Of a stretch of DNA of 64,000 nt, positions 16,524 to 57,741 are shown in pieces (the stretch's first letter is position 1; each line of letters opens with the position of its first letter). The stretch covers positions 79,170-143,169 of the forward strand of contig UCJH01000025.1 in the NCBI GenBank assembly GCA_900472785.1, written 5' to 3'. The notes beneath the pieces were generated by a model. That model saw only the letters and a program-made list of their open reading frames with translations, was not told where the DNA came from and searched no databases. The position numbers and the translations under genes are program-made. The DNA is from Hyphomicrobiales bacterium. GTDB lineage: Bacteria > Pseudomonadota > Alphaproteobacteria > Rhizobiales > Rhizobiaceae.

Positions 16524-17051
16524 TCAGGTCTTGAGGAAGCGATCGATGGCCGACCGGGTCAGGCGCTGATTGTTTCGATACCAATCGTCGTTCGAAAAGA
16601 ACACAGGCTCGCTCTCGTCCCAGCCGCTGCAGCTGAAATCGGACTGCCGGGCGAAGAAAGAGACGAAATCCCGCTCGTTCGTCCAGCGGGCGATTGGCTC
16701 CCCGACATTGTAGCCGCCATCGTAGATATCGGCGAGAATCACATCATCGTCCATACGGATCAGCCCGTGGCCGCAGAACTCCTTGTGAAATTCATGCACG
16801 AGACCCGTGCCGGACTTTGCGGCCATCAGCCTGGTCCACAGTGATTGGGCAAGTTCTTTGCCATACGGCTTTGTGCTGAGCTGGTCGCGAAGCGCAATGC
16901 TGCGCAGGCTCGGCCTGTCCTCGGTTATCTCGGGGAGCGACTTTCCTGCGGAGGGGCGGATTTTGGACTTGGCTTGCATCGAGCGGATTACGGTCGCGAA
17001 GGCCCAGACGATCAGAAACAGGGAAATCAGGGGAATGATCGTCGCAAGCAT
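16524..17051 (-). CDS. membrane-anchored protein of unknown function
   Basis: Not recognised. 175 residues from an ATG with a good ggag site; an in-frame longer form to 17111 is less likely. One N-terminal transmembrane segment (IIPLISLFLIVWAFATVI) is followed by a soluble domain with several aromatic residues (YGKELAQSLWTRLM, FCGHGLIRMDDDVILADIYD, SFFARQSDFSCSGWDE). The soluble part probably faces the cytoplasm given the positive residues right after the membrane span. It lies behind the aminopeptidase gene on the same strand, 121 bases upstream of that gene. Confidence 0.75.
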   Translation of the reverse strand: MLATIIPLISLFLIVWAFATVIRSMQAKSKIRPSAGKSLPEITEDRPSLRSIALRDQLSTKPYGKELAQSLWTRLMAAKSGTGLVHEFHKEFCGHGLIRMDDDVILADIYDGGYNVGEPIARWTNERDFVSFFARQSDFSCSGWDESEPVFFSNDDWYRNNQRLTRSAIDRFLKT

Positions 17052-17229
17052 GCTGATCTCCGCTTTGGGTCCTTTCTCAATTATCATACTTATGCACTTT
17101 GTGCATGGCACCCATGCTGGATAGCCCCTATCTCATTTTCGAATGCGGTTTATAAGGGCGCCCAACGAACACGGACGAAAGCCTGTTGTTCACGCGAATG
17201 CCGAAAGGCAAGAGCTGCATGGTCTGAAT

Positions 17230-17410
17230 ATGGTTGGTTGCCCTTCTCCTCCTCCCTCCGGGTGGCCAATTTCAGATCGTGAAGGGTCCGCTTGAGCGCT
17301 CCTCCTCCTCAAGCTCGCGGACATGGTCGGCTTGCCGACCAGCGGGCGGTGCCTCTGGCATCGCCTTTGTTTCGAAAGGCCGTCTGTCATGATCGACAGG
17401 CGGCCTTTTG
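17230..17410 (+). ncRNA. candidate trans-acting small RNA with anti-Shine-Dalgarno loops
   Basis: In an apparently gene-free 387-base region, five consecutive hairpins can be drawn. HP1: ttggttgccc (17234) with gggtggccaa (17260), loop of 16 pyrimidines containing cctccctcc. HP2: gcttgag (17290) with ctcaagc (17308), loop cgctcctcctc. HP3: ggtcgg-cttg-ccgacc (17325-17340). HP4: ggcggtgcc / ggcatcgcc (17345-17365), then tttgttt. HP5: ggccgtctgtc / gacaggcggcc (17378-17405), then tttt. CU-rich loops complementary to ribosome-binding sites are a hallmark of rhizobial sRNAs such as the alpha-r14 family. Strand is set by the loops and the 3' T-run. Ends are estimates and no promoter was identified. 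Confidence 0.6.
17378..17409 (+). terminator. terminator hairpin of the candidate sRNA / prmA 3' region
   Basis: 11-bp stem ggccgtctgtc / gacaggcggcc (one G-U pair), six-base loop, then tttt on the plus strand and ttt on the minus strand. It can serve the candidate sRNA and, in the other direction, prmA. Confidence 0.75.
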
Positions 17411-17438: not shown

Positions 17439-18317
17439 CTATGCGCGGTCGAGATGGATGGTCACCCAGCCATTGCGCCAGATCGTGCGGACATGGCGCA
17501 GATGGGCGCCATTATAGGCCGACAGCACTTTCCAGCGCTGCGAGGCGAGGATGCCCGAGAGGATGACGGAGCCGCCCGGCGCCAAGTGCGACGCCAGCTG
17601 CGGCGCCATCCGGATCAGCGGACGGGCCAGGATATTGGCGATGATCAGGTCGAACGGCCCATGAGCCGCGAAGGCCGGCGAATGAAAGCCGGGCGCGGTG
17701 ACCATGCGGACGCCCGTTGAAATGCCGTTGCGACGCACGTTTTCTGCGGCGACGCGGGTGGCGATCGGATCGATATCTGTGGCAAGCACCGGCACCGCCT
17801 TCAGTTTGCGGGCGGCAATGGCGAGCACGCCGCTGCCGGTGCCGAGATCAAGCACCTTGGTCACCTTGCGCGAGCGCATCACCTGCTCGATGACCTCGAG
17901 GCAGCCGGCCGTCGTTCCATGATGTCCTGTGCCGAAAGCCTGACCGGCGTCGATCTCGATGCTGACATCGCCCGGGCGGATCTTGTCGCGATCATGCGAA
18001 CCATGGACGACGAAACGTCCGGCATGGACGGGAGAGAGGCCCTCCAGCGACTTGGCGATCCAGTCTTCATCCGGAATGACCTCCCGCTCGATCGTCTTAT
18101 CCGGAAAGTGGGGCTCCAGCACCTCAGCAAGACGGGCGCGCATCGCCTCTTCCTCATCCAGGTCGAGATAAAGCGAAGCCTCCCAGATGTCGTTCTTTTC
18201 ATCCATTTCCATCGTCGCAATCGCGTAGCCGTCTTCCTCGAAGGCATCGCTCATCAGCTGCAGGATGATTTCGGACTGGATTTCGGTGGTGGTGACGAAC
18301 AGGCGGATATCGGCCAA
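17439..18317 (-). CDS. prmA: ribosomal protein L11 methyltransferase PrmA
   Basis: SAM-dependent trimethylation of ribosomal protein L11. The C-terminal Rossmann methyltransferase has motif I VLDLGTGSGVLAIAA (about residue 155) and the acceptor-site motif DLIIANILARPL (about residue 225, the NxL/NPPY-like position). It is preceded by an N-terminal substrate-recognition domain and the linker AFGTGHHGTTAGCLE typical of PrmA. The length of 292 is as expected. It is transcribed toward the candidate sRNA. Confidence 0.93.
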   Translation of the reverse strand: MADIRLFVTTTEIQSEIILQLMSDAFEEDGYAIATMEMDEKNDIWEASLYLDLDEEEAMRARLAEVLEPHFPDKTIEREVIPDEDWIAKSLEGLSPVHAGRFVVHGSHDRDKIRPGDVSIEIDAGQAFGTGHHGTTAGCLEVIEQVMRSRKVTKVLDLGTGSGVLAIAARKLKAVPVLATDIDPIATRVAAENVRRNGISTGVRMVTAPGFHSPAFAAHGPFDLIIANILARPLIRMAPQLASHLAPGGSVILSGILASQRWKVLSAYNGAHLRHVRTIWRNGWVTIHLDRA

Positions 18318-44964: not shown

Positions 44965-45300
44965 TGGAGAAGGTGAAGGCTTCTGTTGCCAGGTGCCTTC
45001 GGACCCCGCCTTACGGTGCGAACCGGAAGGACTTGATTTGAAGTGTCACACTGCGATTAAGCAGCGAGACGAGCTTCCGCATAGTTGTCGTTTGCAACTA
45101 CAAGTTTAGCCCGATAACGGTGGTACAATGCCGAGCAAAAAGTCGATCTTTACGCCCTTGTCGATCCTATTTCGCCCCCATCAAAAGCCGGTCACGCTTG
45201 GTTTCGACCGGTTTTTGGTGGAGGCGCCGGGTACCGCCCCCGGGTCCAATGGGTTTATTTCACCGCCTGTTTATCACCATAGCCGCCCGAAGACGGCACG
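44965..45300 (-). ncRNA. ssrA: tmRNA, circularly permuted two-piece form
   Basis: On the minus strand the order is acceptor piece, spacer, coding piece. The acceptor piece (about 45297 to 45216) ends ggcgcctccacca with an encoded CCA. After a 36-base spacer the coding piece begins at 45179 with gggggcgaaatagg. The two ends pair as a 7-bp tRNA-like acceptor stem with a G3-U70 wobble, the alanine identity element. The tag frame at 45095-45060 encodes ANDNYAEARLAA and is followed by TAA (45057-45059). The 3' end near 44965 and 5' end near 45300 are estimates. No protein gene is needed in this region. Confidence 0.95.
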
Positions 45301-45308
45301 ATTGATAT

Positions 45309-45345
45309 AGGTGTTTCCCTTCCGCATGAAAAGGGCTTTGCGGAA
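45309..45345 (-). promoter_or_regulatory. possible ssrA promoter
   Basis: On the minus strand cttttc-N17-ctatat lies just upstream of the estimated tmRNA 5' end. The -10 is good for alphaproteobacteria, while the -35 is only a partial match to CTTGAC. Confidence 0.35.
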
Positions 45346-57586: not shown

Positions 57587-57643
57587 ATGAAAAAACTCTT
57601 TGCAATTCTTGTGGTGGGACGGCGCATGGGCAGGGTGGTGTAA
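57587..57643 (+). CDS. ilvBN operon leader peptide (18 aa)
   Basis: Short frame from ATG 57587 to TAA 57641 encoding MKKLFAILVVGRRMGRVV. It holds the run Ile-Leu-Val-Val and two further Val near the end, the regulatory amino acids made by the downstream operon, so a shortage of charged tRNAs would stall ribosomes here. It is not preceded by a clear ribosome-binding site and sits almost at the predicted transcript start, so it may be translated from a nearly leaderless RNA. It lies 99 bases before ilvB. Confidence 0.85.
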   Translation: MKKLFAILVVGRRMGRVV

Positions 57644-57669
57644 CCATCCGGCGATAGCCACCCATGCGC
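57622..57669 (+). promoter_or_regulatory. attenuator upstream stem of the ilv leader
   Basis: gcgcatggg (57622) pairs perfectly with cccatgcgc (57661), and gggtgg (57633) with ccaccc (57658). The first arm lies inside the leader frame, so ribosome position decides which pairs form. The exact competing antiterminator was not fully worked out. Confidence 0.6.
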
Positions 57670-57675
57670 GATACG

Positions 57676-57699
57676 AGGCTCCTGACGGGGCCTTTTTTT
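57676..57699 (+). terminator. attenuator terminator before ilvB
   Basis: aggctcc / ggggcct stem (one G-U pair), loop tgac, then seven T. It lies 32 bases after the leader stop and 42 bases before the ilvB start, the layout of a classical attenuator. Confidence 0.88.
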
Positions 57700-57741
57700 A
57701 TGCCTTGAAACCAGCTAATCACCTTCGGAAAAACGCAAGTC

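Follow-up and report, generated by a model that had tools for sequence, protein, structure and literature searches.

The window analysed here, a 64,000-nucleotide stretch of Rhizobiaceae DNA, contains what is, judged by its sequence, a conserved small RNA (sRNA) gene adjoining prmA (plus strand, 17163 to about 17372; Table 1). With a probability of roughly 0.72, we take it to encode a stand-alone Rhizobiaceae sRNA that is activated by LsrB/VtlR, represses translation through anti-Shine-Dalgarno (anti-SD) loops and derives from the 3' UTR of a small-protein gene. Such an RNA would have a promoter to itself, with the LysR-type regulator LsrB/VtlR as its probable activator, and its hairpins would keep two CU-rich loops single-stranded. 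By pairing with GGAGG-type ribosome-binding sites, these loops would lower the translation of several mRNAs. The RNA would be the former 3' UTR of a 51–57-codon gene, whose reading frame was lost while the promoter, hairpins and terminator were kept.

Table 1. Predicted features of the sRNA gene and its surroundings (window positions).
Feature	Position	Strand	Remarks
TGCA-N6-GCAT, LsrB-type box	17093–17106	+	-70 to -57 from predicted start
GCAT-N3-TG-N3-T, VtlR/LsrB-type box	17105–17117	-	-58 to -46 from predicted start
-35 element CTATCT	17128–17133	+	CTAGAC in many relatives; genus alignment
-10 element TATAAG	17151–17156	+	17-nt spacer; genus alignment
sRNA, predicted primary transcript to first terminator	17163–17372	+	~210 nt; ~247 nt if read to second terminator
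5' leader hairpin	17167–17191	+	9 pairs, 3 changed on both sides
Short GCC-NNNN-GGC hairpin	17199–17210	+	Missing from 1/26 genus loci (L002)
Hairpin 1, long stem with anti-SD loop 1 (17244–17259)	17215–17284	+	Covariation
Hairpin 2 with anti-SD loop 2 (17298–17312)	17286–17322	+	Pairing and loop conservation
Hairpin 3, without anti-SD motif	17324–17341	+	5/6 pairs changed on both sides
Hairpin 4 (17344–17366) and TTTGTTT, conserved terminator-like element	17344–17372	+	Alignment, pairing
Second T-run hairpin, between sRNA and convergent prmA	17375–17409		Sequence-variable
prmA, convergent neighbour	17439–18317	-	Pfam PF06325, E = 1.2e-64

Hairpins, boundaries and loops

The preliminary description had placed the RNA at 17230–17410 of the plus strand. 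The strand was borne out; the 5' boundary, however, was set too late and cut into the first stem, and the conserved -10 element puts the predicted 5' end near 17163. At the other end, the tail of hairpin 4 reads TTTGTAT instead of TTTGTTT in part of the relatives in the genus alignment, and the sequence-variable hairpin behind it may stop either the sRNA or prmA.

The five successive hairpins that had been described are present, with a minimum free energy of -89.7 kcal/mol (z -5.49) that none of 200 shuffled sequences reached. Folding of the minus strand was weaker (z -2.81; 1/200 shuffles as low). The structure was followed in two alignments. The genus alignment (26 sequences, 24 distinct) was made with MAFFT and unfitted to any model, the structure being predicted on that same alignment; 99.1% of its cells pair, compared with 31–44% for slid structures, and 12 of 63 pairs changed on both sides, against a shuffle mean of 6.4 (1/500 as high). 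The alignment across many genera comprised 47 matches from 46 loci (45 distinct rows, including one spurious weak match, L067, of 20.6 bits), and leans towards the structure because its rows were fitted to a covariance model. Here 96.3% of the cells pair, against 36–43% when slid, and both sides changed in 34 of 47 pairs, against 22.7 in shuffles (0/500 as high). Among its 45 distinct rows, 20 of the 21 modelled pairs of hairpin 1 (helices 1–2) changed on both sides. Hairpin 2 is paired in 100% of the cells of this alignment, with 7 of 10 pairs invariant.

The terminator-like character of hairpins 4 and 5 and the convergent orientation of prmA would also suit hairpins that act only as terminators between convergent genes, with no sRNA at all. 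This is very improbable, given the conserved promoter, the covarying hairpins and the invariant loops upstream of the terminators. We attach just as little weight to the locus encoding a short peptide, which would be read from a leader ATG as a 9-codon frame (MPKGKSCMV in the window) that recurs in several relatives. The frame is missing or altered in, for example, L002, L007, L024 and L025, and the alignment, read by eye, keeps the GCC-N4-GGC hairpin and not the codons. A leader peptide was rejected on these two grounds.

Loop 1 reads UUCUCCUCCUCCCUCC and loop 2 reads GCUCCUCCUCCUCAA. The proposal of CU-rich anti-SD loops on a structured plus-strand RNA held up well: with the spurious L067 left out, TCCTCC was found in both loops in all 44 distinct rows, and loop 2 carries the longer CTCCTCC in 44/44. 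Loop 1 is kept while its stem diverges (mean column identity 0.904 versus 0.625). The stem and loop of hairpin 2 are equally conserved (0.945 and 0.944), so that this loop does not stand out. Both loops and hairpins persist in close relatives; the loss that had been named as evidence against such an RNA is thus not what was found. Across the 5.4 Mb genome, the pattern CCTCCTCCC-N18..48-CTCCTCC was matched 15 times, with some overlap between the matches, versus 0 for a backwards control, and the 14 of them outside the prmA locus all lie in or overlap alpha-r14 copies.

The anti-SD motifs of NfeR1 and AbcR1/2 are reported to silence target mRNAs (PMC10746234, PMC8844928). By analogy, the loops described here should cover ribosome-binding sites, and we infer base pairing, repression and the existence of targets on that footing. 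Counted against this is that anti-SD loops fit very many ribosome sites, which leaves specificity unaccounted for.

Promoter and LsrB-type boxes

TGCR-N6-GCAT was present within 420 nt upstream of the RNA in 26/26 genus loci and in 55 of the 56 testable loci of a wider pattern scan (58 loci, 2 of them too short). In all 26 genus loci, a -10-like element stands at a distance of 60 nt, counted from the first base of the full combined box, TATGC-N5..8-GCATGGCnCCnAT. This full box is missing from 12 of the 56 testable pattern-scan loci; where it is present, the distance is 60 nt in 43/44 and 61 nt in one. The minus-strand GCAT-N3-TG-N3-T box, in its TG or AG form, was found in 23/26 genus loci.

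The spacing resembles that of published LsrB sites. The TGCA-N6-GCAT that LsrB is reported to bind in the nfeR1 promoter sits at -72 to -60 (PMC10746234), and the published site in PabcR1, for which the available part of the source gives no strand, is at -61 to -49 (PMC8844928); the GCAT-N3-TG-N3-T consensus is from PMC7486931. Two abcR (alpha-r15) copies lie in tandem on contig C76 of the same genome, alongside a LysR-type gene that is presumably lsrB. One carries GCATGTCAGCCAT, a one-letter variant of the box on the same strand as here, between -59 and -47 relative to where its Rfam match begins.

The loose forms of the boxes are common by themselves, with A-N3-C[AT]-N3-ATGC at 14 places and ATGGC-N3-CATGC at 4 in the 64 kb, and TGCA-N6-GCAT occurring twice on the plus strand; the argument for LsrB therefore rests on position and conservation. 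The window, in which the spacing is one base longer, escaped a search for ATCATACTT-N-TGC-N6-GCA that allowed 2 mismatches. With a spacer of N5-8, a ATCATACTT-type box was found at two places, the sRNA promoter and upstream of abcR, a result that is suggestive only, as the distance between box and RNA start is about 65 bp greater at abcR. The predicted boxes stand at distances that match those of nfeR1 and abcR1; we infer binding and control by LsrB, and also transcription of the locus in this organism.

Rfam gave no match at five loci with the box. One such site, L173 (G000:C57:11419-11433), has a GCATGGGAGCCATGC box and, behind it, both a -10-like element and a short terminator-like stretch, part of which reads N; it has no Rfam match and is possibly a further LsrB/VtlR-driven small transcript. 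On the minus strand of the window, an ORF at 16524–17111 has a GTG start at 17111 that overlaps the sRNA promoter boxes. As the L028 homologue begins MAATIIPL, translation probably starts instead at the ATG of MLATIIPL.

Distribution and a possible origin from a small-protein mRNA

In a relatives sample of 61 genomes, 29 matched, comprising the genome of the window with all 25 others of its genus (26/26) and 3 of 11 others of the family; none of 24 genomes of other families did. Within the family, the covariance model R1 found the RNA in 84 of 394 genomes, spread over 21 of 109 genera, with a single match in the genome of the window. An order-wide sample of 249 genomes gave 3 matches, all within the same family. 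The family and order searches used stricter filters, by which weak matches were lost. No match was found outside the family in the samples searched. The 58 loci of the pattern scan came from Pararhizobium, Rhizobium giardinii/herbae, Sinorhizobium/Ensifer (including S. meliloti 4H41), Shinella, other Rhizobium, Neorhizobium, Mycoplana, Xaviernesmea and others. In a survey of 147 loci, prmA was present at 142; 8 sRNA loci were scored there as lacking the loops, presumably owing to a distance of more than 380 nt between the RNA and prmA (529 nt in L102).

An ORF of 51–57 codons lies between the promoter and hairpin 1 in 14 of the 58 pattern-scan loci (13 from one survey and L106 from another), a count in which the upstream sequence of L106 and L134 was cut and unrelated frames were left out. 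The ORF-bearing loci include Rhizobium and Neorhizobium, and the ORF is convergent with prmA. Among eight Rhizobium ORFs, 6 sites vary at codon position 1, 5 at position 2 and 22 at position 3, and the excess at position 3 indicates that the Rhizobium ORF is coding. The hairpins might on these grounds be mainly cis-acting, forming the 3' end of an mRNA for a small protein or of its remnant, since coding ORFs precede the same hairpins in Rhizobium, Neorhizobium and others. We hold this to be improbable: the ORF was not found at the locus in the window's genus, Sinorhizobium or Shinella, yet the loops and promoter are conserved there, which is unexpected for a purely cis role.

Relatives of the Neorhizobium small protein were found in 111 of 199 genomes of the family, covering 66 of its 109 genera; the genome of the window has none. 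Two other genomes of the window's genus were listed; one (G005) has a match on a contig other than that of the sRNA, and the second has none. Among the best 30 small-protein loci, prmA is present in 28, always convergent, and lies within 213 nt behind the match in 27. CTCCTCC follows within 330 nt downstream in 5 of these 30 loci and not in 25. The small proteins tried matched no Pfam or NCBIfam family above the cut-offs. Profile comparison gave a weak likeness to DUF1127 (28 columns, probability 76.5, two-sequence template); with no Pfam match and only this partial likeness, a DUF1127 identity was rejected for the ORF of the relatives. The ORF may correspond to the VtlR-activated small gene atu1667, which is unnamed in the available part of PMC12501420.

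On a prmA tree of 95 rows, presence of the RNA needs one change and presence of the ORF six, of which up to two are inflation from the mis-scoring of L084 (which has the ORF) and L134 (cut off). The tree was a quick one (LG+G4, SH-aLRT only, with key forks at 86–93 and a warning that long branches were numerous), and the ORF-only rows had been picked for having the ORF. Together with the loci that have the ORF without hairpins, these counts make the most economical history, as judged from sequences, one in which a small-protein gene beside prmA acquired anti-SD hairpins in its 3' UTR and the ORF was later lost. That the losses in the window's genus, Sinorhizobium and Shinella/Mycoplana were separate depends on forks that are modestly supported. 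We think it fairly probable that the mRNA of a protein of about 57 residues gained two anti-SD hairpins under LsrB-type control, and that independent ORF losses then left stand-alone RNAs. A further locus, L153, when read by eye, combines a small-protein gene with a hairpin-2-like sequence without anti-SD loop and an upstream GCATGGC-type box; it is a possible intermediate.

If the proposed reading is true, a further anti-SD sRNA would join AbcR1 and NfeR1 in the LsrB circuit, and an S. meliloti transcript of unknown role would gain a hypothesis of function and a family model. The loci would also form a natural series (protein gene, protein gene with RNA, RNA alone) for the conversion of an mRNA into a regulatory RNA. 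As all three stages survive at one syntenic place by prmA, the change could be traced stepwise.

Comparison with known RNAs

The orthologue of the RNA in S. meliloti is probably Sm26/SmelC531, to judge from its mapping. The window holds a permuted alpha-proteobacterial tmRNA at 44972–45336 (minus strand), the S. meliloti counterpart of which served as the mapping anchor. In strain 4H41, 26.6 kb separate the homologue from the tmRNA, which is on the opposite strand; from its predicted start, the homologue measures 239 nt to the second terminator and 195 nt to the first. For strain 1021, SmelC531/Sm26 is reported as 238 nt on the minus strand, 29.9–30.1 kb from the tmRNA start (PMC2873474, Table 4), with the tmRNA on the plus strand (PMC7143759). 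Strand and length thus agree, the RNA being opposite to the tmRNA and 239 nt long by prediction versus 238 nt as reported. The estimated position, 2,317,783, is 3.5 kb from the reported 5' end at 2,321,287, and the identity needs an insertion or deletion between the strains.

Northern blot, microarray and sequencing have all detected Sm26/SmelC531 as an RNA (PMC2573895, PMC2873474), with Northern bands of about 135 and 200 nt and microarray signals under acid, cold, oxidative and salt stress, and its finders aligned it with S. medicae, R. etli and R. leguminosarum (PMC2573895). Its published descriptions differ in part from ours. The predicted start and array probe of Sm26 itself lie 142–191 nt upstream of the SmelC531 5' end, the start predicted by its finders is some 160 nt upstream of ours, it was classed by its finders as a cis-encoded antisense RNA, and its neighbours SMc04453 and SMc01885 were not matched to genes seen in 4H41. 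The available parts of these descriptions give no function, anti-SD loops or LsrB link. No further mention of Sm26/SmelC531 was found in the literature searched, and a tiling-array paper on R. etli leaves prmA unmentioned.

Membership of the alpha-r14 family (RF02344), which the preliminary description had suggested checking in Rfam, was not borne out, with no alpha-r14 match at the gathering score or at E ≤ 5. Nothing at the locus reached a gathering score, and the three matches at E ≤ 5, all to other families, were at chance level (best E 1.3). Elsewhere in the window, an Atu_C8 sRNA (RF02502) was found at 57590–57709 (plus strand, 113.8 bits). The genome has five alpha-r14 copies at other places (92.9–119.3 bits), on which R1 scores 16.0–21.4 bits (E 0.0019–0.032, rough values) versus 174.7 for the window.

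Like NfeR1/alpha-r14, the prmA-adjacent RNA has anti-SD loops, a sigma-70 promoter and TGCA-N6-GCAT near -70. Published alpha-r14/NfeR1 RNAs have three hairpins within about 123 nt, each with an identical CCUCCUCCC in its loop (PMC10746234), and six copies in S. meliloti. Here there are two anti-SD hairpins, with CCUCCUCCC only in loop 1. A further, divergent alpha-r14 copy (an NfeR1-type, 'cuckoo' RNA) would account for CCUCCUCCC in loop 1, for the TGCA-N6-GCAT that also stands upstream of the genome's own alpha-r14 copies on C113 and C80, and for the R1 scores on the five copies, three of them at E below 0.005. We regard it as unlikely, because Rfam finds no match, loop 2 lacks CCUCCUCCC, a separate hairpin lacks the motif and the homologues lead back to a gene beside prmA. 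An alpha-r14 identity was rejected on the Rfam result, the true copies elsewhere and the low R1 scores on them; the small likeness in R1 score fits the shared loop motif, a distant common origin being another possible source.

With AbcR1/AbcR2 (alpha-r15, RF02345), the stand-alone RNA proposed here shares anti-SD motifs and a GCAT-N3-TG-N3-T LsrB-type box near -60. Rfam gave no alpha-r15 match at the prmA-adjacent locus, and the alpha-r15 copies of this genome differ in lying beside the LysR gene on C76. EcpR1 was rejected, as its loop and place differ.

CcsR1-4 and CcaF1 of the Rhodobacter CIN1 locus are described as 'cuckoo' anti-SD RNAs with a DUF1127 protein, CcaF1 (PMC10253847). The ORF-bearing homologues resemble them in that a gene for a very small protein precedes the anti-SD RNA; they differ in that their small protein has no Pfam match and only a weak profile likeness to DUF1127. 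No short DUF1127 gene was found in the window. Elsewhere in the genome, a DUF1127 match lies within about 250 nt of the alpha-r14 RNA on 3 of the 4 contigs with alpha-r14 copies, a CIN1-type arrangement (G000 C79:89295-89710, C80:11200-11326 and C113:13540-13661).

OxyS is reportedly, in a 2022 study, an mRNA turned into an sRNA. The RNA next to prmA would resemble it in being an mRNA that became an sRNA, although the RNA and the host group are unrelated. What is new here, as far as the sequences indicate, is that the same hairpins follow a small-protein gene in some genera and stand alone in others; unlike OxyS, the prmA locus keeps both ORF-bearing and ORF-less states in related genera.
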